DNA of 27,474 nucleotides, taken from IMG/VR virus record IMGVR_UViG_3300029319_000383, positions 1-27,474 of that record. One strand, 5' to 3'. The notes beneath the pieces are model-generated. The model saw only the letters and a list, made by a program, of their open reading frames with translations. It did no database searches and was not told where the DNA came from. This stretch comes from a virus. Made by a program: the position numbers and the translations under genes. Shown piece by piece: positions 7,229 through 24,923 of the stretch (position 1 is the first letter of the stretch; every line of letters begins with the position of its first letter).

Positions 7229-10200
7229 CAACGTCATCGTATGCACAAAAAATGATGAACCGTCCTTACAGTTTTGAAGGTCAACAAACTACAGAAAACC
7301 TTGGAGACCTTTTTCAAAATAAACCTGCATTAAAAAACTACATAGATATTTACTATGAGTACGATCTAGCTGATGCTGAAAACAGATCGCCTAATCTCAC
7401 TGAAGAACAACGCCAATTCGCTAAATCTTATGATAGATATTTAAGAACTTATCTTGCAAATCAAGAAGCGGTAGATAAAGCAAAAGCTGAAGTTTCAACA
7501 ACTGAAGCCTTTGAAGCAGATTACTACTACCCGCGTCGAGAATACGAAGAAGGACCATTCAGTACTTTCAGAAAATATGTTGCTGATCCGGCAAGCGATC
7601 TATTTGAAGCAGGGAAGTACTATACAGCTAAAGCTCTTCAAGGAAGGCAACTTGAGCAGTATAACAATCTTACAATAACACAAAGAAACGAGGCTGAAGT
7701 TGATGATCTTGCTAGGCGAGGAATAAACCCAAACAAGTATTACTCATTTAGATTTTCTAATTTGCCGACAGATCAAAGACTTTCTGACTCTCTTGAGTCT
7801 TTGATAGAAGATTTGGAAGGAAAAAGACTTACAGGGTCTGATGAAGCAGAACGCCGCCAAACTCTTCAGGGTCTTCGTCTTCAACAACAGAAACTGAACC
7901 GGGAAAACTTGTTGGGGAATCTTGCTCCCGGCCCAATGGTTAGTCGTTTTTTCCAACCTATAAGTATGACCCCTAGCGAAGGAAAATTCTTTTTAAAAGA
8001 CATTTCCCCTAACGCAGAAGTGCGGTACATCGACCCTAAAGATCCAACAAGAGGGTTAGCTGTTCGTGATGAAAACACTAACGGAATGTTTGAGCCATTA
8101 GATCCTCAATTTGGAACAGCTTTTCTATCAAATGAACTTATAAATCTTTTAGGACAAGAAGCCAGCACTATATTACTTGAGGTGGGTGGCCTCAAAGGAT
8201 TAGACAAGGTTTTTAGGCCAGCCCTAGAGAACTCTAGTATTGTTCAAAAATTTTATAGGGGGTCAGGTAATGTGGGAGTAGCTGGTTTGTCAGCGGGGAT
8301 AGGCAGGTTTGCGCAACTTACTCTCGGGAAAAAGCTTGGTTACAACAACATCACTTTTGAAAGAGCTTATGACGATGCTTTTGATTCAGCTTTATGGGCG
8401 GCGGGAGGAACGGCTGTTATAGGAAGTACCCTTTCTGTACTTAGTAGAGTTTGGAATTTAGTAGCAGGTGAAACAGTTCCTGCAAATATGCTGTTAGAAA
8501 TCTCTCGTAAGATAGGAGACGCAAAAAAAGTTGGAACAGGGGAAGAGTTTTCTACAGAAGAATTGAAGAAAAGGCTTGAAGAGGTTACTGGTAATTTGTA
8601 TTCCCCCTCTGCAGGAGAGCTAACTTCAGATGCAGAACTAAATGCTTTGATGATGTCTTTACTTGTTGAACTTGGTAATGACACCAAAGGTGTCCAGGCT
8701 TATAAAGCACTTTTGCAAAACGACGCTGAAATAGCCACAGATTTTTGGGACTTCCTTACTAAAAACGATGAATCGTGGGAAGGAGTTGATTTTGCAAGTT
8801 TTAGGAAGTATCTAAATATAGAACAACAGAAAAGCTTGGAAGCTGAAAAACTTCTGTTATCACAAGAAGAAGAGGCGCTTAGAAAAGGATTAGATGAAGA
8901 GTTAAGAACGCTCACTACTGTAGATGGAGATGCAAGTAAAATTGCTGAAAGAGTTTTAGAACGATCACAGCAAGGGGGATTTATTGACCCACGCAGCTCT
9001 CCTACGGTGCTCGCTGAGTATGATGAAAAATATAATTTGGCAACTGAAACAGTTAAAGAAGAACTTGAAAAATTAAGTAACGAGATCCCTGCTTATGCAG
9101 GTATGAATAAAAACCAAGCGTTTGCTAGATTCGAAGAATTTCTCTTCCCTGCCTTCCGAAAAATTTTCGGAGCCATCGACGAGGGAGAGACAGCAGAAAT
9201 TATGCGCTCTCTAGGGGATGTAGAAGCCTCAAGAATTATTAAAGACATGATTCCCATGCAAGATGGGACGAGCATGATTAAACAATTAATGGGGCAAAGA
9301 GTAGATGACGAAGGCAAACTTTTAAAGTTAGGCAATTACGGTTTGGGGCAGTTAATAGGAATGCGAGAGGCTCTAAGTGAGCTGTATATAGCCAACTCTA
9401 AACCCAATGTTAGAAAAACTGTCAATGAGTTACGAAACGCGGTTAGTGATCAAATAGATGATTTAGTATTGCACGAAGCTCGATATAGGTTAGCAGACGA
9501 AGGAAATGAAAATCCTATTCCAGCTGTCTTGAGAGAGAAGGTTAATGAAATAATCAATCCTTTAAATACAGCTCAGGAAGCATTGCAAGAGGTTCGAGAT
9601 GGAGTTGAAAGAAAATATATAAAAGAGCTAACTAGCAGACAACCTGAAGACATAGCTGGTTTCGTTTTAGGCTCTACCCCTCGTCAAGTACGTCAATTAG
9701 TTGACGAAATGCTTATAACTCCTGATTCTACTTCTCGTTTACAAGCTGTACAAGAACTTGTTCTTTTAACCATAAGAGAAACGATAGGAGAGGATGGATT
9801 AGAGGGACAAGCTAAAAAATTCGATAAGTTCCTAAGTGAAAACAGTAGACAATTATCAGAGTTATTTGGTGAAAAATTTGATGATTTGCGTAGTTTCAAA
9901 GAGTTGCAAGAGCAGGGGCTTGCTGAAATAGAAGGGCTTAAAAAAGCAACTCAAGAGTTCGAAGCAAGGTTCGACAAAGAACCAACTAATTTTATTAGAG
10001 ACCTTTTAATGCAAGGAAGAATTAATGTTCTTGCAGGAGACAAGGCTAAAGCAGAAGATTTTCAAAAACTTATATCGGAAGAATATCCTGAACTGCGTCC
10101 TGTAGTTGTCGCACTAACAAAAGATTTTTTAAGAACCAATTTTATTGGTACGAAATATCCTTACGGTCCTGGGTTTAGAGAAGCTGGCGCGATATATGAA

Positions 10201-10710
10201 CCGGGAGGTTTTGACCTCAACGGGTTCATTACTTTTGTGAACTCCGCTAAAGATTTAAATGCATTAAGTAATGTTTTTATTCCATTATTTGGCGAAGAAG
10301 TAGGGAAGAGATACGCTAAAGATTTGAGAATATTGTCTCAACTTATACAAAGAACTAAAAGGCCACAAATAGAAGGCGCATCGACTGATCAAGCTAAACA
10401 GACAGTAAGGGATTGGACTTCAAAAGTTCAGTTTAGTTTTAGAATGATGGTTCCTCCTCTTACCCAAACAGGTCGTCGACTTAATGCTTTAACAGATTTA
10501 TGGAGAACACGAACTAAAAGACACCTTTTAGAAATCTTGGCAGACCCTACGAAACTAAACGAATTACTCAAAGATAGAAAAAGAAACATAACTTTTAAAC
10601 AATATCTTAGTTTTCTTGGGGGACTAGCGACAGCTAGATACAATGTTTCGGAAGATAGGCTAGAGGAAGAAGATCTGGCTGAAATTGAGGCGGTGCTTGA
10701 TGAAAATTAA
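7225..10710 (+). CDS. Largest internal virion protein, 1161 aa
   Basis: This is the longest gene in the window. The protein is hydrophilic and predicted helical for most of its length, with many Glu/Lys/Leu heptad-like stretches (for example residues 440-620 and 700-900). A small Gly/Ala segment around 350-400 could be amphipathic. The size and position resemble large podovirus ejection proteins (T7 gp16 and the similarly large proteins of marine podoviruses), which are expelled into the host during DNA entry. No transglycosylase motif was seen near the N-terminus. The gene overlaps the preceding stop by ATGA, and its own stop is overlapped by the next start. Confidence 0.6.
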   Translation: MTTSSYAQKMMNRPYSFEGQQTTENLGDLFQNKPALKNYIDIYYEYDLADAENRSPNLTEEQRQFAKSYDRYLRTYLANQEAVDKAKAEVSTTEAFEADYYYPRREYEEGPFSTFRKYVADPASDLFEAGKYYTAKALQGRQLEQYNNLTITQRNEAEVDDLARRGINPNKYYSFRFSNLPTDQRLSDSLESLIEDLEGKRLTGSDEAERRQTLQGLRLQQQKLNRENLLGNLAPGPMVSRFFQPISMTPSEGKFFLKDISPNAEVRYIDPKDPTRGLAVRDENTNGMFEPLDPQFGTAFLSNELINLLGQEASTILLEVGGLKGLDKVFRPALENSSIVQKFYRGSGNVGVAGLSAGIGRFAQLTLGKKLGYNNITFERAYDDAFDSALWAAGGTAVIGSTLSVLSRVWNLVAGETVPANMLLEISRKIGDAKKVGTGEEFSTEELKKRLEEVTGNLYSPSAGELTSDAELNALMMSLLVELGNDTKGVQAYKALLQNDAEIATDFWDFLTKNDESWEGVDFASFRKYLNIEQQKSLEAEKLLLSQEEEALRKGLDEELRTLTTVDGDASKIAERVLERSQQGGFIDPRSSPTVLAEYDEKYNLATETVKEELEKLSNEIPAYAGMNKNQAFARFEEFLFPAFRKIFGAIDEGETAEIMRSLGDVEASRIIKDMIPMQDGTSMIKQLMGQRVDDEGKLLKLGNYGLGQLIGMREALSELYIANSKPNVRKTVNELRNAVSDQIDDLVLHEARYRLADEGNENPIPAVLREKVNEIINPLNTAQEALQEVRDGVERKYIKELTSRQPEDIAGFVLGSTPRQVRQLVDEMLITPDSTSRLQAVQELVLLTIRETIGEDGLEGQAKKFDKFLSENSRQLSELFGEKFDDLRSFKELQEQGLAEIEGLKKATQEFEARFDKEPTNFIRDLLMQGRINVLAGDKAKAEDFQKLISEEYPELRPVVVALTKDFLRTNFIGTKYPYGPGFREAGAIYEPGGFDLNGFITFVNSAKDLNALSNVFIPLFGEEVGKRYAKDLRILSQLIQRTKRPQIEGASTDQAKQTVRDWTSKVQFSFRMMVPPLTQTGRRLNALTDLWRTRTKRHLLEILADPTKLNELLKDRKRNITFKQYLSFLGGLATARYNVSEDRLEEEDLAEIEAVLDEN

Positions 10711-12238
10711 ACTATTCCAACCTTCCGTTATTATGAATGCGCCTCGTCGTGCTCGAGGAGGCTCAAACAACAATTTAGCACCAGTATATAGGTTAAATCC
10801 TGATGGCACGGAAACATTAGTAGAGGACACAGTCACTACTATCCCCGAAAGATCTGCAGCATCTGATGCGGCGGACGCGCCTGTACAAGATGAAAATAAT
10901 GCAGGTAGTCCTCCTGCAGACTTAAATCTTGTCGATTATTCAGCTCAACAACTTCCTGTTATGACAGGCGGTCAAAGCGGCCCTGCTCCAGATCAACTTC
11001 CAGGGGGATCTCAAGAGATTCCAGCAGACGTTCTTGATGCTCAGCTTCAGGACCAAATAAATCAAGATCAACTTTTTGAAGATTTACTTGCAAGGTTCAG
11101 AGAGGGGGAGTATGTCACAAGTGAAGAAGTTGATGACCTAATAAACTCTAATAGATTGAGTAGAGAAGATGTTCAGAGATTAATAGGTGAGCATACATTT
11201 ACCGAAGAACAATATGCCTCTTTATTTTCGCAGGGGTTACTCACCAGAGAAGAAATTGAAAATCTTATAGCTGGTTCACAACAGCTTATACAGGAAGAAC
11301 AAATTTCTCTAAGTAATCGTTTAGATGAATTACTGGAACTGGGTCTTACTAGAGACGAGGCTATTGCTCAGTTGTCAGAAGAGTTCAATTTATCTATTGA
11401 AGATATTTTAGAGCAATTAGCAGCGTTAGAGAGTCAAGTAGAAAGTGAAGTAGAAGGTGAAGTAGAAGGGGAGTTAGACCAAGAAACAATAAATCAACTT
11501 CTACAAGACTATACGACGCAAGCACAGTTACAGGATGCTTTAGCAGGATACGCAACGCAAGAACAACTTGCTGGACTTGAGTCAGCTTTTCAAAATAGGT
11601 TGACTCAAGAAGATTTAGAGGCTTATTTAGCAAATACTGATCAAGGGTATCTTACTCAAGAAGATTTAGATGCTTACAGCGAGTCTCAAGATTATGGAAT
11701 ATCTGAAGAAGACTTGAGCGACTCTGCTGTTATACAAGAGCTTGCTGATCGTTTGGATAATTTAACAGAACAATATGCAGACGTTACCTCTCAGTATGAA
11801 GCAGATGCTGTAAATCAACAAATAGAAGATACTAAACAAGAGCTGAGCGATTATATGTCTAGTACTAGCCCCACTGGTCCTAGAACGGGGTCTACATCTG
11901 TATTTGAATCAGGAGCCTCTTTCCTCCCAGGAGGAAGCCCAATGGCTAACCTTATACAGGGACAAAGAGAAGGAATGGGACAAGATCCGTTTAGCACATA
12001 CTTGAAAACATTTACTCCTACCTATGCAGAATACGAAGAACCTTACACTCCTGAGGAGTATGGGGAGATTGCAGGAAGCACTGTTGATATGAATTATCCT
12101 AATCCGTTTACTGGTGGAGTTGCACAGAGGGCAGAGGGCGGAAGAACCTCTAACGGTATTATGGATATGCTTAATTACAATACGAACGTGGCTCCTTTCC
12201 AAAACGCATTTAGACCTAACAGAACGAGGAATATGTGA
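10700..12238 (+). CDS. Acidic repeat/coiled-coil structural protein
   Basis: The ATG at 10700 is chosen over a TTG at 10685: it has GAGG about ten bases upstream and overlaps the previous stop by 11 bp. An ATG at 10733 is a second possibility. The protein is very acidic. Residues about 135-200 hold a repeated helical unit of roughly 20 residues (TSEEVDDLI, SREDVQRLI, TEEQYASLF, TREEIENLI). Another copy set with LTQEDLEAY and LTQEDLDAY lies at about 300-330, and between them is a Glu-rich EVEGEVEGEL tract. The C-terminus is Gly/Asn-rich. It may be a scaffold-like or internal virion protein; no enzyme motif was seen. Confidence 0.6.
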   Translation: MKIKLFQPSVIMNAPRRARGGSNNNLAPVYRLNPDGTETLVEDTVTTIPERSAASDAADAPVQDENNAGSPPADLNLVDYSAQQLPVMTGGQSGPAPDQLPGGSQEIPADVLDAQLQDQINQDQLFEDLLARFREGEYVTSEEVDDLINSNRLSREDVQRLIGEHTFTEEQYASLFSQGLLTREEIENLIAGSQQLIQEEQISLSNRLDELLELGLTRDEAIAQLSEEFNLSIEDILEQLAALESQVESEVEGEVEGELDQETINQLLQDYTTQAQLQDALAGYATQEQLAGLESAFQNRLTQEDLEAYLANTDQGYLTQEDLDAYSESQDYGISEEDLSDSAVIQELADRLDNLTEQYADVTSQYEADAVNQQIEDTKQELSDYMSSTSPTGPRTGSTSVFESGASFLPGGSPMANLIQGQREGMGQDPFSTYLKTFTPTYAEYEEPYTPEEYGEIAGSTVDMNYPNPFTGGVAQRAEGGRTSNGIMDMLNYNTNVAPFQNAFRPNRTRNM

Positions 12239-12621
12239 TGATCCCAGATCGTTTAGACATGCTTAGAGAAACGGCTAGTGCCTCCGCAGCTCCTCCAATG
12301 GAAGAACCTGCAGGACTTGCTAGTCTTAACAACCCTGCTCCAATGCCCCCTGCCTCTCTCCCGACTGGGCAGATGGAGACCCTCTCTGGCTTAGAGGATA
12401 TTATTGAGCCAGAGGGGGTTATGTCTGAAGAGCCTGAAGTAGATTCAGAAGACGGAGCCTCTATGATTGCAATGGCTGCAGTTAATGCAACAGGTTCAAC
12501 AGACGCAGCTATTAATGCGCTACAAGAGGCAATTAACGTCTTAGAATCTCAACGCGCAGAAGAAGAAACGATGCCTGAAGATTCTGGAAGACTAGAAGAT
12601 CTCTTAATGGGAATGACTTAA
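12238..12621 (+). CDS. Small acidic protein at end of structural block
   Basis: The protein has 127 residues from the ATG at 12238, which overlaps the previous TGA; a GTG three bases earlier is also possible. The first half is Pro/Met/Ala-rich and probably disordered. The second half is acidic with a helix (DAAINALQEAINVLESQ). No known family was recognised. It is the last plus-strand gene of the structural block, and its stop shares bases with the stop of the convergent helicase. A strong inverted repeat (12379-12419) lies within it and may act on mRNA. Confidence 0.55.
   Translation: MIPDRLDMLRETASASAAPPMEEPAGLASLNNPAPMPPASLPTGQMETLSGLEDIIEPEGVMSEEPEVDSEDGASMIAMAAVNATGSTDAAINALQEAINVLESQRAEEETMPEDSGRLEDLLMGMT
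12379..12419. repeat. Strong inverted repeat in last structural gene
   Basis: ACCCTCTCTGGCT (12379-12391) pairs with AGCCAGAGGGGGT (12407-12419) over 13 positions with one T-G wobble, loop of 15 bases. It is rich in GC for this genome, and no T-run follows. It lies about 200 bases before the convergent stops and might slow transcription or protect the mRNA end. Confidence 0.65.
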
Positions 12622-14060
12622 TTAAGCCAGTCTTTCCATTTTTCATCGCCTAAGACTTCTTGAGCAAGGTCTAGTTTGGCTCTTAGGGCAGAGACAATTT
12701 TTTCATCTATGGTGTTTTTACAAACCAGATCAACATAGGTTACTTTGTTCTCTTGCCCTATGCGGTGTGCTCTGTCTTCCGACTGAAGTCTTTTCTCAAG
12801 ATCAAAGTTATTAGAGTAATAGACCACGTTCTGAGCTTCAGTTAACGTGATTCCATATCCTCCTGTTTGGGTGTTCCCTACGAAAAACTCTAACGGGGAG
12901 TATGGGTCTTGGAAGTCTCTAATTATCCTTTCTCGTTCATCAGGATGGGTATCTCCAAAATATGCAGCCACTGATTTAGCACCTACTAAACCAGCTAAAG
13001 TATCAACAATCTCTAGTATGTTCTGTCGGTAATTAGCCCAGATGATGACTTTACCTTGCATCTCTGAAAGGACTTCTAGTAAAGCGTCTATCCGATTATT
13101 TTCTACGGGAGTCTCTGTACCGTCATCACTCTTTATGTGGCCACACACTATCTGGTGTAGTCGTAATAGTTGAGTCAATACATTAGTTACGGAAACTTGT
13201 TCTTGGTTAGACAGAAAAGCAATCGCGTTGGCTTTTAACTCTGCATAAAGTTTTTTCTGTTCCGCAGTAAGCTCTACATCTCGTTTCATGTAGACTTTAT
13301 CAGGAAGATCTATGCAATCTTTCTTTAAAACACGGTAGGAGAAAGTGTCTAGTCTCTCAGTAAGTTCTTCTAGATTTCTGAAACCTACTACTGTTCGTAC
13401 TTTCCGGCCTCCGAAATACTTATCTACCACCTCTCCGTAATGGTTCTGAAAAGAATAGAAAGAGCTATACCCTAATAGAGAAGGAGCGAGAACCTCCGTT
13501 TGACTATACAAATCTAAAGGGGACTTAGTTATTGGAGAACCTGTCAAGACTCTACGGAAGCGAGTATGTTTAGCGAGTTTGAGAATATTCTTAGTTCTCG
13601 CTGCCTTGGGGTTTTTTATCGTAGTTGACTCATCTATTGCGAAAAGAGTTTCGTGACTCATGATGAAGTTTTCTGTGAACTTTACGCCCTTACTAGTGCT
13701 AAACGCCTCTACATTAATGATCAGTATCTTTAGTGCGTCTTTGACGTCAAAAAGACCTAGAAGTGCTTCTTTTTCTTTTTTACGTGGAGAGGGACTCCAG
13801 ACCGCTATGTGAGTCTCAACATGGTCTGGTAGATGGGAGGGTATCTCTCTACTCTCCCAGTTCTTATACACACCTTTTGGAGCAACTATGACTGCCGCAT
13901 TTATAGCGCCCTTACCGTAAAGTATTCCGATAGTATCAATCAGAACTTTAGATTTGCCTGTACCCATCTCCATAAAAAGAGCGTACTCAGTTTTATTCCA
14001 AGAACGGGTTAAGGCTTCTTTTTGATGGACGAAGGGGTCCGTTTTGAATTCGTATTTCAA
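12618..14060 (-). CDS. SNF2-type (SF2) DNA helicase/translocase
   Basis: This ATP-dependent DNA translocase has 480 residues. Visible motifs are a Q-motif-like HQKEAL (12-17), Walker A MGTGKS (32-37), Walker B DEST (143-146), motif III LTGSP (172-176), and a C-terminal RecA-like half with motif V GGYGITLTEA and motif VI QSEDRAHRIGQ, the signature of SNF2 proteins. The start is a TTG: reading leftwards on the minus strand, AAAGGA stands six bases before it and an in-frame TAG blocks extension. It is the only minus-strand gene. Phage SNF2 proteins usually serve in replication or recombination; the substrate here is unknown. Confidence 0.93.
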   Translation of the reverse strand: MKYEFKTDPFVHQKEALTRSWNKTEYALFMEMGTGKSKVLIDTIGILYGKGAINAAVIVAPKGVYKNWESREIPSHLPDHVETHIAVWSPSPRKKEKEALLGLFDVKDALKILIINVEAFSTSKGVKFTENFIMSHETLFAIDESTTIKNPKAARTKNILKLAKHTRFRRVLTGSPITKSPLDLYSQTEVLAPSLLGYSSFYSFQNHYGEVVDKYFGGRKVRTVVGFRNLEELTERLDTFSYRVLKKDCIDLPDKVYMKRDVELTAEQKKLYAELKANAIAFLSNQEQVSVTNVLTQLLRLHQIVCGHIKSDDGTETPVENNRIDALLEVLSEMQGKVIIWANYRQNILEIVDTLAGLVGAKSVAAYFGDTHPDERERIIRDFQDPYSPLEFFVGNTQTGGYGITLTEAQNVVYYSNNFDLEKRLQSEDRAHRIGQENKVTYVDLVCKNTIDEKIVSALRAKLDLAQEVLGDEKWKDWLN

Positions 14061-17594: not shown

Positions 17595-19088
17595 GTGCTG
17601 TCCTCTCGTGTTCAAGTAATTCTTGGTCCTCCTGGGACGGGTAAGACAAGCACTCTTCTAGGATTGTTAGAGGAGGAGTTAGAGCGAGGTACAGCGCCAG
17701 AGCATATAGGGTTTTTTACTTTCACTAAGCAAGCAGTGCAAGAAGGTAAGAGCCGCGCTATGGCCTCGTTTGAGATTAGTAATCTTCAGCTGCCTTATTT
17801 CAGGACACTCCACTCTCTTTGTTTTTTACAGCTGGGTCTCTCGAAAGAGAGTGTTATGGGATCTTCCCATATTCACGATTTAAATGAGAAGCTCAACCTT
17901 AGACTCACAGGATCTATTAATTCTGAGGAGGGACATGTCTCTAGTGTGTCTAAAGATGATCGTCTACTGTTTATAGAAAACCTATCTCGTATGCGACAAA
18001 CAACACTCACCGAGCAGTGGCATGACTCTGATGAGGCGGTTGGATGGTTTGAGTTAGAACGATTCTCTAAAGGTCTAAAGTTGTTTAAGGATGATCGTCT
18101 TCTAGTTGACTACACTGACATGCTCCAGCTTTTTCTCAATCGTGGAAGAGCACCAAAATTAGATGTTATGTTCGTAGACGAGGCACAGGATCTATCCCCT
18201 TTACAGTGGGCCGTGGTTCGTAAGTTATGTGATTCTGCAGATCGTATCTACATTGCAGGGGATGACGATCAGGCTATTTATCGGTGGGCGGGAGCGGATG
18301 TAGATTATCTAATCCGTAACTCTAAAGACGCGATGGTCCTCCAGCAGTCTTACAGGATTCCTAAATCTATTCACACATTGGCTGAAAGATGTATTGGACA
18401 AGTTGTATCTCGTGTCCATAAGAAATGGAATCCTAGGAAAGAAGTAGGGCACGTGTCTTGGGAACCGTCTTATGAATCTATAGACATGGAACACGGTGAT
18501 TGGTTAGTCTTAGCTCGGACTAATTACTTGTTAAATTCTATTGAAGAACACTGTCGCTCAGAGGGATGGTTCTACAGAAGTAAAAACAAACCCTCTGTTT
18601 CGGATAGAAAGATAAAAGCAGTACAGAATTGGGAGGAGTTTAGGAAGGGGACTCCAATACCTCTCGTTGACCTTACCAAAATCTTAAATTATATAAAGGT
18701 TCGCGCACCCTCGTCCCTGAATAAAAAAGACTTTGATACCTCTATCTCATATGACGAGGCGCTACAGTTTATTCCGCAGTTGAAAAATGAGTATTGGTAC
18801 GATGTATTCACAGGCATTAGTGTTTCTGAGAGAAGTTACATAAGAGCCATGTTGCGCAGAGGAGAAAAGATAACTAAAGATCCGAGAATCAAGTTATCAA
18901 CTATCCATGCGGCTAAGGGTGGGGAAGCTGACAATGTCATCTTACTGACTGATCTCTCTAACAGAATCTATAAGTCATACCAAAGTAACCCTGACGATGA
19001 GTCACGGGTTTTCTATGTTGGGCTGACTAGAGCAAAAGAGAAGCTGTTTTTAATCGAGCCTCAAACGCAGAAGTATTTTCCTATTTAG
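17595..19088 (+). CDS. UvrD/Rep-type superfamily 1 helicase
   Basis: This helicase has 497 residues and starts with GTG immediately after the primase TAA, so translation is coupled. SF1A motifs are in order: GPPGTGKT (11-18), FTFTKQA (Ia), DEAQD (II), GDDDQAIYRWAGAD (III), LQQSYRIP (IV), STIHAAKGGEADNVIL (V) and VFYVGLTRAKEKL (VI). It is shorter than E. coli UvrD (720 aa), with reduced 1B/2B insertions. It probably unwinds DNA 3'-5' at the fork with the primase and SSB-like protein, though repair or recombination is also possible. Its TAG stop lies inside the second promoter-like repeat. Confidence 0.93.
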   Translation: MLSSRVQVILGPPGTGKTSTLLGLLEEELERGTAPEHIGFFTFTKQAVQEGKSRAMASFEISNLQLPYFRTLHSLCFLQLGLSKESVMGSSHIHDLNEKLNLRLTGSINSEEGHVSSVSKDDRLLFIENLSRMRQTTLTEQWHDSDEAVGWFELERFSKGLKLFKDDRLLVDYTDMLQLFLNRGRAPKLDVMFVDEAQDLSPLQWAVVRKLCDSADRIYIAGDDDQAIYRWAGADVDYLIRNSKDAMVLQQSYRIPKSIHTLAERCIGQVVSRVHKKWNPRKEVGHVSWEPSYESIDMEHGDWLVLARTNYLLNSIEEHCRSEGWFYRSKNKPSVSDRKIKAVQNWEEFRKGTPIPLVDLTKILNYIKVRAPSSLNKKDFDTSISYDEALQFIPQLKNEYWYDVFTGISVSERSYIRAMLRRGEKITKDPRIKLSTIHAAKGGEADNVILLTDLSNRIYKSYQSNPDDESRVFYVGLTRAKEKLFLIEPQTQKYFPI

Positions 19089-19148: not shown

Positions 19149-19658
19149 ATGAATATTTTTGTCACGGACGTTTGTCCAGAGATTAGCGCACGCACTCAGT
19201 GCGATAAGCATGTTGTAAAGATGGTTTTAGAGTCTGCCCAGATGTTGTCGACCGCTTGGCGTATTTGCGCTCCCGAGGAGGCAGAGCGTAGACAGTTGTA
19301 TAAGGCAGCGTATATGAAGCATCCCTGTACCCAATGGGTTCAGCAGTCTGCAAAAAATTACCGCTGGCTCTACGACCACTTCGTAGCGTTGTGCGATGAG
19401 TATTCGCATCGTTATAAAAAGACACACTCTTGTGCACGACTCCTCTCTGCCTTAGACGATATTCCTTACAGGGCTTCTTATTGTTCAGATTGGGGGTCTA
19501 AGGGAATCAAGTTGACCCCCTTCGCACAGGCCATGCCTGATCAGTACAAGAATGATTGCGCGTACACGGCGTACAGAAATTACTTAGTAGCAGAGAAAAG
19601 TCACTTCGCTAAGTGGGAAAAAGACCCCTCAAGAAAACCAACATGGTGGAATAACTAG
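19149..19658 (+). CDS. Conserved phage protein of unknown function (MNIFVTD...CDKHVVKM)
   Basis: The protein has 169 residues with strong Shine-Dalgarno AAAGGAGAAG. The N-terminus MNIFVTDVCPEISARTQCD, followed by KHVVKMVLESAQMLSTAWR, with later HPCTQWVQQSAKNYRWLYDH and the ending RKPTWWNN, is a family seen in many marine and Vibrio phages as hypothetical. Size and the 'R-x-P-T-W' ending distantly recall T4 endonuclease V (pyrimidine-dimer glycosylase, ending RPTWYKYYG), but the active-site arrangement is not convincingly present. It opens the transcript that also encodes base-modification genes, so a DNA-base-related role is possible. Function stated as unknown. Confidence 0.75.
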   Translation: MNIFVTDVCPEISARTQCDKHVVKMVLESAQMLSTAWRICAPEEAERRQLYKAAYMKHPCTQWVQQSAKNYRWLYDHFVALCDEYSHRYKKTHSCARLLSALDDIPYRASYCSDWGSKGIKLTPFAQAMPDQYKNDCAYTAYRNYLVAEKSHFAKWEKDPSRKPTWWNN

Positions 19659-20513
19659 ATGGCCTCTATTAGAAAGACGCTCGAAGAGAATATAAACGAC
19701 AGTAAAAATACCCGCATGGATATTGCGGGAGGGAATATGTTGGGTAACTGGCGTCCCGATGAGATTGCGCATATGACGCGCTACGACAAGTTGTCTTCAC
19801 TCTGTATTGAGGAAGCTAAAAAGTTGAACAGACCCATACATGTCCTAGAGGCGGGATGTGGACAGTGCTGGGTTCTAAGGAATCTGTATAAGGCATACAC
19901 CGTTAAAAAATCTGACGTTATTGGCAGTTACTTAGGAGTCGATATAGACCCTGCTGTTTTAAATGAGATTCCTGGATACCACAGTCCTACTGGGAAAATT
20001 ACAGAGTCTGCTTGGTTCAGTAATTTTTCAGGATCAGTAAACATTCAAGATTTAACTACGTCTCCTAGATTCCACTTACCTGACCAGAGCATAGACTTTT
20101 TCTGGACGACAGAAGTTATCGAGCATATGGGCAAAGAGTTTGTTCCTGCATGGCTAGACGATGTAGACAGAGTTCTACGTCCAGGAGGACTGGTGTATGT
20201 CTCCACTCCGAATCACGACGGGTCTAACGATAAATTACCAGAGGACCACGTGTATGAGTGGGGGTTCGAAGAGTTAAAACAAGAACTCACCTCCAGATGG
20301 AGGCTGCAGTCTGTCGTAGGAACATTCTGTCAGTTACCGAAATTAAGGAAGGCGATGAGAGAGGACGAACAAGTTACAGGGGAACTCTGGGGTCCGGAGC
20401 AGTTTGAGATCTTAGAGGAAAGGTACGGTCGTCAATTTCTAAGAGTGGTCGCAGCTATTTTTTATCCAGAGGTTTCTAATAATTGCGCTTGGATTCTTAG
20501 AAAAAATGGATAA
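19659..20513 (+). CDS. Class I SAM-dependent methyltransferase
   Basis: The protein has 284 residues and begins directly after the previous stop. The SAM fold is clear: motif I VLEAGCGQC (62-70), acidic motif II GVDID (93-97), a post-II region ending IDFFWTTEVIEHM (145-157), and VLRPGGLVYVSTPNH (172-186), as in UbiE/Methyltransf_11-type enzymes. The DPPY/NPPY motif of adenine-N6 or cytosine-N4 DNA methylases is absent, as is a PC motif for cytosine-C5. The substrate may therefore be a small molecule, a modified base or a glycan. Its place next to a thymine-hypermodification protein makes a modified-base substrate worth considering. The next gene overlaps its stop by 8 bp. Confidence 0.85.
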   Translation: MASIRKTLEENINDSKNTRMDIAGGNMLGNWRPDEIAHMTRYDKLSSLCIEEAKKLNRPIHVLEAGCGQCWVLRNLYKAYTVKKSDVIGSYLGVDIDPAVLNEIPGYHSPTGKITESAWFSNFSGSVNIQDLTTSPRFHLPDQSIDFFWTTEVIEHMGKEFVPAWLDDVDRVLRPGGLVYVSTPNHDGSNDKLPEDHVYEWGFEELKQELTSRWRLQSVVGTFCQLPKLRKAMREDEQVTGELWGPEQFEILEERYGRQFLRVVAAIFYPEVSNNCAWILRKNG

Positions 20514-21447
20514 GAGCAGCATCTTCATCGAGCAAGAATTACAAAGATACATGTACTGGATAAGAGAGCGGGAGCAGATCAGGCTTAGAAAGGAGGAACT
20601 AAAACAGGAGCCTCCTTGGACCCAAGACGAGATTCTCGAGAAGTTTAAATTCTGCCAAGTATTTAGAGAGGACGACAGGACCACACGTTGGTTTAGGTCG
20701 CATATCCGTGACCCTCTAAAAGATAGCCCTGATGTTCTGATGGCGACAGTGGCTTTTAGATTTTTCAATCTAATTGAAACTGGTCGCACTCTGTTAGAAC
20801 ACGGACTACATATAAATTGGGATAGAGAAAAAGCTATCCAAGAGGTTAGGAAACAACCTCAGTGGGTAACAGGAGCTTACATCGTAAAAACCCCTAATAG
20901 GCTGGATAAGGTAAATGGAGTTGCAGAGTGTGTGAGCCATGTATGGGGCGCTAAAGAACGGATAGTCGAGGAACTCGAGAACATTACTTCTTTAGCTGAG
21001 GCATGGCGTTATCTTCTGCAGTTTCCATACATAGGCCCGTTTGTGTCTTACGAGCTGGTTTCTGATCTTAGGCACACTTATCTTTTAAGGGACGCAGAGG
21101 ATATTTGCACATGGGCTAATGCTGGTCCTGGAGCGATGAGAGGGCTTAACAGACTTACAGGTAGAGACCTAAATTTTAGTAAACGTAGTTGGGACTGGAA
21201 CGGAGAAATGCAAGCTCTATACCAGTGGTGTAACGAGTACTTAGATTTTAGTGAGTTTCATAGACCTTTTGAAATGCGAGAAGTAGAAGGAGGTCTGTGC
21301 GAGTTTGACAAGTACTCTCGTATTTACTACGGGCAGGGACGCACTAGAAGCGTGTATAACTATTCAGAGAAAGACCGTCCTCTAATCGAGGACATAGAGA
21401 AAGGAGAGAGCAGATGGGCACACTCAAACAAGAGCTTATCAACCTAG
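20506..21447 (+). CDS. Thymine hypermodification family protein (HMUDK-helical/ADDT type)
   Basis: The protein has 313 residues. It shows the family's ordered landmarks: QRYMYWIREREQIRLRK, FCQVFREDDRTTRWF, a helix-hairpin-helix-like FPYIGPFVSYELVSDL, WANAGPGAMRGLNRL and the C-terminal CEFDKYSRIYYGQGR. These belong to the glycosylase-fold families that Iyer and colleagues linked to alpha-glutamyl/putrescinyl-thymine synthesis, later split into 5-hmdU DNA kinase helical domain and amino-acid:DNA transferase. No Walker A is visible, so this protein cannot itself be the P-loop kinase. It likely recognises or processes a modified thymine in DNA. The thymidylate-synthase-like gene nearby supports this. 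Which of the two families it belongs to is unresolved. Confidence 0.75.
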   Translation: MDKSSIFIEQELQRYMYWIREREQIRLRKEELKQEPPWTQDEILEKFKFCQVFREDDRTTRWFRSHIRDPLKDSPDVLMATVAFRFFNLIETGRTLLEHGLHINWDREKAIQEVRKQPQWVTGAYIVKTPNRLDKVNGVAECVSHVWGAKERIVEELENITSLAEAWRYLLQFPYIGPFVSYELVSDLRHTYLLRDAEDICTWANAGPGAMRGLNRLTGRDLNFSKRSWDWNGEMQALYQWCNEYLDFSEFHRPFEMREVEGGLCEFDKYSRIYYGQGRTRSVYNYSEKDRPLIEDIEKGESRWAHSNKSLST

Positions 21448-21647
21448 ATAGTACGACAACAGAGTTTGTTCTATCAGAGTATGGAGAGTTTTTAGTTAGG
21501 TGTATGAAAGATCACTCTATACCTAACAGCTGGAGGGATGCCATAAATTCTATTTATCAGGCATCTAACATCTCAGGGAAGAGTCTCACTAAACTTCAGA
21601 TTGAATTTATTCTTTTTGAAAACACAGAAAGTCTATACGAGGAGTAA
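21414..21647 (+). CDS. Small hypothetical phage protein, 77 aa
   Basis: The ATG at 21414 follows a good Shine-Dalgarno (AAAGGAG, seven bases away) and overlaps the end of the previous gene by 34 bp in another frame. The protein is mildly acidic and predicted helical (EFVLSEYGEFLVRCMKD; SLTKLQIEFILFENTESLYEE), with no known family. Its last codons carry the GGAG that could serve as Shine-Dalgarno for the thymidylate-synthase-like gene eight bases downstream, so it may act partly as a coupling ORF. It is real on the strength of its ribosome site and operon position; function unknown. Confidence 0.55.
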   Translation: MGTLKQELINLDSTTTEFVLSEYGEFLVRCMKDHSIPNSWRDAINSIYQASNISGKSLTKLQIEFILFENTESLYEE

Positions 21648-21654
21648 GAAAACA

Positions 21655-22713
21655 TTGTTTGTTATTAGAGGAGAGAATGTTAACGACGTTTTTCTAAGAG
21701 GAGTGGACTTCTTTAAAAGTGAAGTTAATTACAGAACCCAGCCTAGTCGGAACGGACTGACGAGAGAAGCATTAGAGCCAGTAACCACTGTTTATTCAAG
21801 ACCATGGCAGCGGGTTCTTTTTAATGAAGCTAGAGACGCTAATCCATTTTTCCATCTGTACGAGGCTATTTGGATGTTAGGGGGGTCCGAGGATTTGAGA
21901 AAGCTCACGCATTTTAATTCAGGCATGGCTAATTTTTCTGACGACACTCTTACTTTGAACGGAGCTTACGGGTATCGCTGGAGAGACTACTTTCTGACAG
22001 ACCAGTTAAAAACAGTCATACAGGTTTTAGAAAAAGATCCAGATTCGAGAAGAGCGGTCGTTCAGATGTGGGACTGTAATAATGATCTAGACAGTAATAG
22101 CAAAGATATCCCTTGTAACACGCACATCTATTTCAAGATAAGAGACGACAGACTTAACATGACGGTCTGTAATAGATCGAACGATATGATTTGGGGAGCT
22201 TATGGAGCTAACGCGGTCCATATGTCCGTCTTGCAAGAATTTATTGCATCCTCACTCAATGTCGGCATGGGGACTTACCACCAAGTGAGTGATAGTTTTC
22301 ATGTTTATGAGAATGAGCAATGGGACAAGGTTAAACATCTTGGTATCAATGCTTTTCACTGGCCAGCAGAAAATGAGCCGTACCCCGTTTTGAGTCATTA
22401 TCCTCTCGTTAACAAGCCCGATTGTTTTTTAGATGAGTGTTCCGCTTTTCTCGATCAGATTCCTCCGAGAAGGATTTCTGGTGTTCCAGAGGAGGTTGAC
22501 ACTTGGGGTCCGATATTAGTTGATGACTACATGAACTATTTTTTCCCAGAGGTATTAATTCCAATGGTTCATGCATATTTACAACACAAAAAGAGAAAGT
22601 ATGAAGACTGTTACAAGTTTCTGGCGCAAATTAAAGCGAAAGATTGGCAGAGAGCCTGTGTTGAGTGGGTCACTAGAAGAGAGACCGCTTGGAGAAATAA
22701 GAATGGAAAGTAA
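21655..22713 (+). CDS. Thymidylate-synthase-fold enzyme, likely dUMP hydroxymethylase
   Basis: The protein has 352 residues from a TTG at 21655 (GGAG 11 bases upstream); a TTG at 21601 is less likely because it overlaps the previous gene. The thymidylate synthase fold is plain: YEAIWMLGG (Glu70), NGAYGYRWRD, DPDSRRAVVQMWD (Arg132/133), catalytic Cys154 in DIPCNTHIY, VCNRSNDMIWGAYGAN with Asn186, and SDSFHVYE (His216, Tyr218). Asn rather than Asp at the base-recognition site favours dUMP over dCMP. The one-residue shift around YGAN and the spacing before His216 differ from ordinary ThyA, as in phage hydroxymethylases. It probably makes 5-hydroxymethyl-dUMP or dTMP; the neighbour favours the former. 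Confidence 0.85.
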   Translation: MFVIRGENVNDVFLRGVDFFKSEVNYRTQPSRNGLTREALEPVTTVYSRPWQRVLFNEARDANPFFHLYEAIWMLGGSEDLRKLTHFNSGMANFSDDTLTLNGAYGYRWRDYFLTDQLKTVIQVLEKDPDSRRAVVQMWDCNNDLDSNSKDIPCNTHIYFKIRDDRLNMTVCNRSNDMIWGAYGANAVHMSVLQEFIASSLNVGMGTYHQVSDSFHVYENEQWDKVKHLGINAFHWPAENEPYPVLSHYPLVNKPDCFLDECSAFLDQIPPRRISGVPEEVDTWGPILVDDYMNYFFPEVLIPMVHAYLQHKKRKYEDCYKFLAQIKAKDWQRACVEWVTRRETAWRNKNGK

Positions 22714-23095
22714 GTGGGGCGAAATACGGGATATCGCTCAAAATGATATTCGTAGCCTAATCGAGTCCGAAAAATCTTACGGGGATTCTTGGAAGCGTAG
22801 AGGCGGCACCGGAGCTTTTATGATGCTGGCCCGTAAGTTCGACAGGATCGAGCAGCAGAGTGAAAAGTGTAACTACGATGTTTTTACAGCCGCATCGACG
22901 TTTACGGGAGAGGAGGGGTTACTAGATGACATTGGAGATCTGCGTAGATACTTATTGTTAGTAGAGCACCATATCCGATATACCCAGATCATTCCTACTA
23001 GAGAAGAGATAGTACACGCTTTGCAGAGCATAGAATCTCAAGAGGAGACGACAGGAGATGGTCCAACAGATCCCCTTGATACAGCCAGAGGTTAA
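22703..23095 (+). CDS. Conserved phage protein (YGDSWKRRGGTGAFMML motif)
   Basis: The protein has 130 residues from the ATG at 22703, which overlaps the previous stop by 11 bp. A longer reading frame upstream would lie entirely within the thymidylate-synthase-like gene and is a shadow. The block SYGDSWKRRGGTGAFMML followed by ARKFDRIEQQ is recalled from many phage hypothetical proteins; no function is known. It is alpha-helical (DDIGDLRRYLLLVEHHIRY). It is encoded between the nucleotide enzyme and the polymerase, with a 38 bp overlap into the polymerase gene, so a replication or nucleotide role is plausible. Confidence 0.65.
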   Translation: MESKWGEIRDIAQNDIRSLIESEKSYGDSWKRRGGTGAFMMLARKFDRIEQQSEKCNYDVFTAASTFTGEEGLLDDIGDLRRYLLLVEHHIRYTQIIPTREEIVHALQSIESQEETTGDGPTDPLDTARG

Positions 23096-24923
23096 TTGGA
23101 GTCCTCCGTCCGTTCTACCTCATTTTAGTGAACACGAAACGATAGCTGTCGACTTAGAAACGTATGACCCTAATTTGAGAAAACGTGGTCCTGGATGGGC
23201 TACCTCGGACGGGTTTATTGTTGGAGTTGCTCTCGCTACTAAAGACTGGTCAGGCTACCTTCCCATGAGACATGAAGGGGGAGGGAACTTAGACGAAGAG
23301 ATAGTTATTCGCTGGATGAAAAAGACTTTAGGAGGCCACAAGGGAACTTTAGTTTTCCATAACTCTTTGTACGATGTTGGATGGTTGCGGAGAGAGGGCA
23401 TAGAACTAAGTTGCCGCATCCGTGACACGATGTTCGCTGCTCCTTTGTTGAACGAAAACAGACGTTCTTATTCTCTCGATAACCTAGGCAATGATTATTG
23501 TGGAGAGAAGAAGGATGAGTCTTTGTTGCGTTCAGCTGCTACCGCTTGGGGGCTAGATGCTAAGTCACAGATGTATGCATTACCCGCGTACTATGTGGGA
23601 GAGTACGCTGAACAAGATGCAGTATTGACCCTAAAGTTGTGGGACATTTTAAGTGAGCAGATTTGTGCTGAAGGGTTACAAAAAATCTATGACCTAGAGT
23701 GCGATTTAATTCCTCTACTTATCGAGATGCGTTGGAGAGGAGTCAGAATAGATATTGACAGAGCTGAGGAAGTTGCCGAGGAGCTTTCTAAAAGAGAGCA
23801 ACAGTTATTAGTCGAGTTTAAGAGAAGGTTTGGAATCTCCGTAGATATCTGGGCGAGTGCTTCGATACAGAAAGCCTTCGACGCTAATGGGATCTGGTAT
23901 CCACATACAGAGAAGGGGTCTCCTAGTTTCCAGGCTCAGTGGTTAGAGAATCACGACCACGCTCTCCCTAAGACCCTAGTAGCCGCTAGAAGGCTAAATA
24001 AGGCTCGAACTACCTTTATAGAGGGGATGGTCCTAGAACACGCTGTAGACGGGCGTATACACGCTGAGGCGCACCCTTTAAGGAACGATCTAGGTGGGAC
24101 GGTAACGGGGAGGTTTAGTTACTCGAATCCGAATCTACAACAGGTTCCTGCGAGGGATCCAGAGATAGGTAAGTTGATTCGATCTCTCTTCTTACCGGAG
24201 GAAGGAGCAAGGTGGGGCGTGTTTGACTATTCCCAACAAGAGCCTCGAATCACTGTCCACTACTCCTCGATCTTAGGACTCCAAGGAGCGGATGAGGCGG
24301 TTCGGGCCTACTCGAATGAAGGAGCTGATTTTCACCAAATAGTTGCAGATATGGCGGGGATTCCTAGGAAGCAAGCTAAGAATATAAATCTAGGACTCAC
24401 CTACGGGATGGGGCACAAGAAACTTGTGAGTGAGTTAGAAGTTAGTGAGGATGAGGCGCAAGCTCTTCTGCAGATCTATCACGATCGAGTTCCTTTTATT
24501 AGACAGATACAGGACAACTGTAAACGTGTCGCGGAGCAGCGGGGGCACATAACGACCCTCGGAGGAAGAAAGTGTCACTTTAACTTGTGGGAACCTGTAT
24601 GGTCAGAAGGCAACGCGAAGACTCCGTTTCCGGAAGAAAAAGCCAAGGAGGAATATGGATCGAACTTAAAAAGATCATTTACTTATAAGGCACTTAACAA
24701 ACTGATACAGGGATCGGCTGCGGACATGACGAAACTCGCAATGCGAGACCTCTGGAAAGAAGGGATGGTGCCACATTTACAAATTCATGATGAACTTGAT
24801 TACTCGATCTTTAACGAGGATCAGGCACAGTTGGTGATAGATCGGATGTCTAATTGTGTAGAGATGAGGGTGCCATTAGTAGTCGATTACGAATCTGGAG
24901 AAACTTGGGGGGACGCCGAATGA
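23058..24923 (+). CDS. Family A DNA polymerase with 3'-5' exonuclease
   Basis: This replicative polymerase has 621 residues. Exonuclease motifs are intact: VDLETYD (Asp32, Glu34), HNSLYD (Asn102, Asp106) and YAEQDAVL (Tyr183, Asp187). Polymerase motif A is DYSQQEPR (Asp390), motif B is RKQAKNINLGLTYG (437-450), and motif C is HDE (577-579). In the O-helix, Leu445 takes the place of E. coli Phe762 or T7 Tyr526, while Lys441 and Tyr449 are kept. There is no 5'-3' exonuclease domain. Start ATG at 23058 follows AGAGGAG at ten bases. It is likely the fork polymerase, working with the upstream primase and helicase. Confidence 0.96.
   Translation: MVQQIPLIQPEVNWSPPSVLPHFSEHETIAVDLETYDPNLRKRGPGWATSDGFIVGVALATKDWSGYLPMRHEGGGNLDEEIVIRWMKKTLGGHKGTLVFHNSLYDVGWLRREGIELSCRIRDTMFAAPLLNENRRSYSLDNLGNDYCGEKKDESLLRSAATAWGLDAKSQMYALPAYYVGEYAEQDAVLTLKLWDILSEQICAEGLQKIYDLECDLIPLLIEMRWRGVRIDIDRAEEVAEELSKREQQLLVEFKRRFGISVDIWASASIQKAFDANGIWYPHTEKGSPSFQAQWLENHDHALPKTLVAARRLNKARTTFIEGMVLEHAVDGRIHAEAHPLRNDLGGTVTGRFSYSNPNLQQVPARDPEIGKLIRSLFLPEEGARWGVFDYSQQEPRITVHYSSILGLQGADEAVRAYSNEGADFHQIVADMAGIPRKQAKNINLGLTYGMGHKKLVSELEVSEDEAQALLQIYHDRVPFIRQIQDNCKRVAEQRGHITTLGGRKCHFNLWEPVWSEGNAKTPFPEEKAKEEYGSNLKRSFTYKALNKLIQGSAADMTKLAMRDLWKEGMVPHLQIHDELDYSIFNEDQAQLVIDRMSNCVEMRVPLVVDYESGETWGDAE

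Follow-up and report, generated by a model that had tools for sequence, protein, structure and literature searches.

The window analysed here is the whole virus record IMGVR_UViG_3300029319_000383 of IMG/VR, 27,474 bases long and itself a fragment. It contains structural-type genes followed by a replication block that comprises a helicase, a methyltransferase (MTase), a protein of the HMUDK_hel family, an enzyme with the thymidylate synthase (TS) fold and a family A DNA polymerase (PolA). An earlier inspection of the bare letters (the sequence-only reading) had taken the HMUDK_hel and TS genes for a thymine hypermodification cassette. We propose that the MTase belongs to it as well, and consider it fairly probable that these genes form a kinase-independent modified-thymine cassette in which the MTase would serve as the tailoring enzyme. 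The end product is probably a base that has not been described so far.

All three genes lie on the plus strand. The class I S-adenosylmethionine (SAM)-dependent MTase (19659-20513; Pfam Methyltransf_23, E 1e-11) adjoins HMUDK_hel on its upstream side, with an overlap of 8 nt. The HMUDK_hel protein, also termed aGPT-PPlase1, has 313 aa (20506-21447; PF18723, E 1.9e-43; phrog_2396, E 1.2e-57), and the TS-fold enzyme has 352 aa (21655-22713; Pfam thymidylate synthase, E 1e-23; phrog_5131, E 2.5e-107 over the full length). Between 19659 and 24923, most reading frames overlap (MTase/HMUDK_hel, HMUDK_hel/77-aa open reading frame (ORF), TS/130-aa ORF, 130-aa ORF/PolA) or are only a few bases apart, which fits one transcript and is compatible with the earlier placing of a methyltransferase and an unknown protein in the same transcript as the pair. 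Promoter-like sites were rarer than in shuffled sequences and hence uninformative. The gene order MTase - HMUDK_hel - (77-aa ORF) - TS - 130-aa ORF - PolA is invariant among the relatives, of which the near-complete ones show full synteny.

The HMUDK_hel protein and its putative tailoring partners

The 313-aa protein scores 149.3 bits against PF18723 (cut-off 25), covering positions 4-275 of the 281-position profile, and shares 35% identity with M6 gp55 and 39% with PaMx11 gp50 by BLASTP. The landmarks FREDDRTTRWF, PGAMRGLNRL and CEFDKY, named in the sequence-only reading, are present in the translation, and the family residues RExD, Y-GPF-YE--D, GPG-RG and CE-DKY are shared by the window protein, M6, PaMx11 and the majority of some 100 loci compared. 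Profile search and homology to the M6 and PaMx11 proteins thus place it in HMUDK_hel and not in an unrelated family. The original label, "HMUDK-helical/ADDT type", holds for its first half only: the amino acid:DNA transferases (ADDT; PF18724) are a separate family, whose profile did not match.

The predicted structure (predicted local distance difference test score, pLDDT, 93) was compared with solved structures by VIA-align. The 8-oxoguanine glycosylase MjOgg matched with Z 11.3 and a root-mean-square deviation of 3.6 over 187 aligned residues, the queuine salvage enzyme DUF2419 with Z 11.2, and PaMx11 gp46, a 5-phosphomethyl-dU (5-PmdU) glycinyltransferase according to its PDB description, with Z 10.7. 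Because the Foldseek E-values were weak (0.07), support for a glycosylase fold is moderate, and at that level of confidence we predict a helix-hairpin-helix DNA glycosylase-like fold. The likeness to DUF2419 would allow a role as nucleoside hydrolase, which we do not favour. A sequence search against the PDB returned chance matches only (E 0.03).

To see which genes accompany HMUDK_hel, we surveyed 101 loci, deduplicated at 93% identity and in most cases extending 8-10 kb per side; each locus scan took the best 80 matches and so covered the commoner and closer forms. The window-type MTase is present in 54 of them and a P-loop kinase in 28 (19 with ADDT). Sixteen have a glycosyltransferase, either a TET-associated glycosyltransferase (TAGT, ten loci) or a GT1 enzyme together with an FkbM methyltransferase (six loci). 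No tailoring gene was seen in the remaining three, one of which lies at a contig edge and one of which is ViI. These gene sets do not overlap, and there is no mixed class.

On a tree of the HMUDK_hel proteins, in which many deep branches are weakly supported, the kinase and TAGT labels require ten changes each, so these modules have probably been swapped repeatedly. The MTase set forms essentially one clade. Thirty residues are kept in at least 90% of the proteins in all three compared classes, and we found no position that distinguishes MTase-type from kinase-type proteins. In the simplest reading, HMUDK_hel therefore does the same job everywhere, independently of a kinase. Judged from these comparisons, it looks like a 5-hydroxymethyl-dU (5-hmdU)-DNA partner that serves different tailoring enzymes.

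The TAGT gene (PF20691) accompanies HMUDK_hel in kinase-free cassettes at L187:5568-6428, L242:9948-10751, L216:9784-10716 and L209:11857-12726, which suggests glycosylated 5-hmdU in these phages. At L193 (8822-9463 and 9750-11099; also L190, L195, L196 and L198), an FkbM methyltransferase and GT1 replace the window-type MTase in an HMUDK_hel and TS cassette whose replication block resembles that of the window. Another four loci (L200, L202, L247 and L254) combine HMUDK_hel with a kinase-type gene and have no ADDT nearby, and L202 carries a radical-SAM/SPASM protein at 10076-11122; other end products are likely there.

An independent scan anchored on the MTase gave a matching picture. In 80 of 81 loci, which were not deduplicated and in large part coincide with the HMUDK_hel-based set, the MTase is immediately followed by HMUDK_hel; the remaining locus, on a Maricaulis metagenome-assembled genome contig, ends just past the MTase. 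This MTase (L261:4262-5098) has 54% identity and hints at alphaproteobacterial hosts. The motifs GCG and DID-P are invariant in 29 relatives. The MTase model (pLDDT 84) matches the fold of AtmM, TleD, RebM and other class I MTases; METTL6, CmoM, RebM, cap MTases and others differ little in Z. Natural-product, tRNA and cap MTases thus match about equally well, and the structure does not name the substrate.

The MTase could in principle act elsewhere, on a tRNA, a small molecule or a host factor, while the base either stays 5-hmdU or is altered by HMUDK_hel alone. A weak resemblance to tRNA methyltransferases (phrog_4752, E 0.0011), the generic fold and the plain 5-hydroxymethyluracil found in the DNA of SPO1 (PMC5977210) would all agree with this. 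Yet the MTase never occurs without HMUDK_hel and TS where the contig continues, it overlaps HMUDK_hel by the 8 nt mentioned above, and loci lacking it usually have a kinase or glycosyltransferase beside the same two genes. We regard this alternative as unlikely.

Kinase search and specificity of the TS-fold enzyme

No 5-hmdU DNA kinase (PF18748) and no ADDT (PF18724) turned up when the whole records of 23 close relatives were searched, seven of them near-complete at 52-82 kb; the kinase was detected in the controls M6, PaMx11 and Ab18, and ADDT in the same three phages and in one viral contig. AAA_33 (PF13671) was absent from the 11 relatives searched, again with the controls detected. TAGT was likewise not found in 11 MTase-type relatives (controls G027 and G028 detected), nor is there such a glycosyltransferase in the window. 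With the PaMx11 kinase as query, no match was obtained in the window, where a Walker A scan left the UvrD helicase as the sole credible P-loop protein, in agreement with the sequence-only reading, which had seen no P-loop kinase there. The same scan of all ORFs of 11 relatives returned UvrD and a few lone matches, some of them glycine-rich and none kinase-like by context. One match in the window, ASNISGKS in the 77-aa ORF, was rejected as chance, being a lone pattern in a short ORF without a family match.

Since the window is a fragment, absence inside it proves little, hence the extension to relatives. The absence of kinase and ADDT from near-complete syntenic relatives is much stronger. In every close relative whose record reaches far enough to show the locus, the MTase stands in place of kinase and ADDT. 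The earlier suggestion that the final base could differ from the known ones gains from this result, with both genes missing from all seven 52-82 kb records and an MTase present instead.

These searches bear directly on the possibility that the phage follows the route of M6 and PaMx11, in which a kinase phosphorylates 5-hmdU in DNA and a transferase adds an amino acid, both enzymes being either divergent or encoded in the half of the genome that the fragment lacks. Its HMUDK_hel and TS proteins are homologous to those of M6 and PaMx11, and the Pfam name of HMUDK_hel links the family to a kinase. Against such a route stand the absence of PF18748, PF18724 and AAA_33 from near-complete relatives with all controls detected, the lack of any small Walker A ORF beyond UvrD and chance matches, and the presence of kinase and ADDT beside HMUDK_hel in other phages. 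We judge it to be quite improbable.

The TS-fold gene starts with TTG, preceded by AGGAG at 21640-21644 (10 nt upstream), and its product shares 41% identity over the full length with the M6 TS. We aligned it with E. coli ThyA, T4 gp42, SPO1 gp29 and the M6 and PaMx11 enzymes. The window enzyme has D151, C154-N155 (PCN), RSND and N186, a signature common to SPO1 gp29 (annotated as dUMP hydroxymethylase), M6 and PaMx11; the equivalent sites of E. coli ThyA read L143, C146-H147 (PCH) and RSCD. The sequence-only reading had numbered Cys154 and Asn186 exactly; these residues align with C146 and N177 of E. coli ThyA. An Asn at the position of N186 is associated with specificity for dUMP as opposed to dCMP. 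From this residue signature, the enzyme is predicted to be a dUMP 5-hydroxymethylase, making 5-hydroxymethyl-dUMP rather than dTMP. An ordinary thymidylate synthase supplying dTMP, with neighbours unrelated to base modification, is most improbable: the enzyme exceeds the Pfam cut-off for thymidylate synthase, a threshold unable to tell ThyA and hydroxymethylases apart, but it falls below every NCBIfam thymidylate synthase equivalog cut-off, its best match among solved structures is a CMP 5-hydroxymethylase (E 8.9e-26), and its active-site signature is that of the SPO1 dUMP hydroxymethylase and not of a true ThyA.

A possible route to a modified base

For the kinase-independent cassette with its MTase, we envisage four steps. 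The TS-fold enzyme would make 5-hydroxymethyl-dUMP, as its residue signature and homology suggest. By analogy to the biology of SPO1, M6 and phiW-14, this nucleotide would enter DNA through the nucleotide pool and the adjacent phage polymerase. HMUDK_hel would then recognise or flip 5-hmdU in DNA and present it to the tailoring enzyme that the particular phage encodes, a role to which the swapping of modules and the conservation of its residues point. Finally, the SAM-dependent MTase, in keeping with its linkage and exclusivity, would modify the hydroxymethyl group, most simply by O-methylation to 5-methoxymethyl-dU.

In its broader form, the proposal is that a SAM-derived derivative of 5-hmdU, for example 5-methoxymethyl-dU, arises without phosphorylation and that HMUDK_hel is a general adaptor for 5-hmdU-DNA on which kinase, glycosyltransferase and methyltransferase are interchangeable. 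We put this forward tentatively, and 5-methoxymethyl-dU as the specific product more cautiously still, as a speculative candidate.

Several points weigh against the cassette as we read it. Because the MTase class is essentially one clade, its perfect linkage represents one evolutionary event and not many independent ones. The window is a fragment, the near-completeness of the relatives was judged by length and gene order (end repeats were not found), and a kinase with another fold might have escaped the searches. The MTase fold is too generic to identify a substrate. Sequence comparison shows the protein families, the fixed gene unit, the lack of kinase and ADDT in near-complete relatives and the mutual exclusion of modules; the chemistry of the cassette is proposed on that footing.

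If the proposal is correct, it would add a methylation route to the known thymine chemistry of phages. HMUDK_hel, which Pfam names as part of a kinase, would become a kinase-independent module working with several tailoring enzymes, and the cassette would supply a small set of candidate proteins for direct tests on 5-hmdU DNA. The MTase-type cassette is widespread, occurring in scores of uncultured, pelagiphage-related phages, and is thus relevant to the means by which common aquatic phages may escape restriction.

Flanking genes and comparison with known systems

The cassette is bordered upstream by a UvrD-like helicase (17595-19088, plus strand; Pfam UvrD-helicase, E 2.4e-28) and downstream by the family A DNA polymerase (23058-24923, plus strand; Pfam DNA_pol_A, E 7.7e-58), whose closest named phages are 023Pt_psg01, DSL-LC04 and HTVC023P. 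A pyrimidine-dimer-glycosylase-like protein (Pyr_excise; 19149-19658, plus strand; PF03013, E 4.5e-12; phrog_624, E 1.6e-61) directly precedes the MTase and is accessory, being found at this position in 51 of 99 loci. Two small plus-strand ORFs could not be assigned to a family with confidence in any library tried. One, of 77 aa (21414-21647), has no assigned function, overlaps the end of HMUDK_hel and occurs in part of the clade only (41 of 99 loci). The other (22703-23095) encodes a conserved 130-aa protein with the YGDSWKRRGGTGAFMMLARKFDRIE motif (YG-SWK-RGG-GAFMMLARK-DRIE), which adjoins HMUDK_hel and TS in kinase, glycosyltransferase and MTase cassettes alike and has a homologue in phage Pam3 annotated as "nucleotide modification". 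A relationship to PaMx11 gp53 or M6 gp61 was tested, and no link was found. Elsewhere in the window, a SNF2-type helicase (12618-14060) is the sole large minus-strand gene, and its position is kept in all relatives examined.

M6 and PaMx11, whose products are 5-NedU and Nalpha-GlyT / 5-NmdU, respectively, resemble the window in that their dUMP hydroxymethylase and HMUDK_hel are homologous to its own and likewise lie near a family A polymerase. They differ in carrying a P-loop 5-hmdU kinase (PF18748 or AAA_33) and an amino acid:DNA transferase close to HMUDK_hel, as well as pyridoxal phosphate/radical-SAM or flavin adenine dinucleotide enzymes, none of which were found here. Conversely, the window clade has the MTase, of which no homologue was found in M6, PaMx11 or Ab18. 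SPO1 gp29 has the same active-site signature (D-PCN-RSND-N) as the window TS; SPO1 is not known to carry HMUDK_hel or a tailoring cassette.

The pairing of HMUDK_hel and TS, taken by itself, had already been published: a TS and aG/PT-PPlase1 pair was reported in 2022 for HTVC023P-type pelagiphages, together with a glucosyltransferase in some members (PMC9599517). The text of that paper mentions no methyltransferase, uses "kinase" for histidine kinases only and does not discuss a missing kinase. These pelagiphages have the same gene pair near PolA as the window, and their group is the one closest to its polymerase; unlike in the window, helicase and PolA are not separated by such a cassette in HTVC023P, 023Pt_psg01 and DSL-LC04.

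The IMG/VR cassettes that combine HMUDK_hel and TS with TAGT or GT1/FkbM share the kinase-free core of the window and are predicted to glycosylate. A literature search combining methoxymethyl, hydroxymethyluracil and phage found nothing; an earlier description in the primary M6/PaMx11 papers or in an earlier computational survey of the family is possible. Within the literature searched, both the kinase-free, MTase-linked variant and the swapping of modules on a common core seem to be new.

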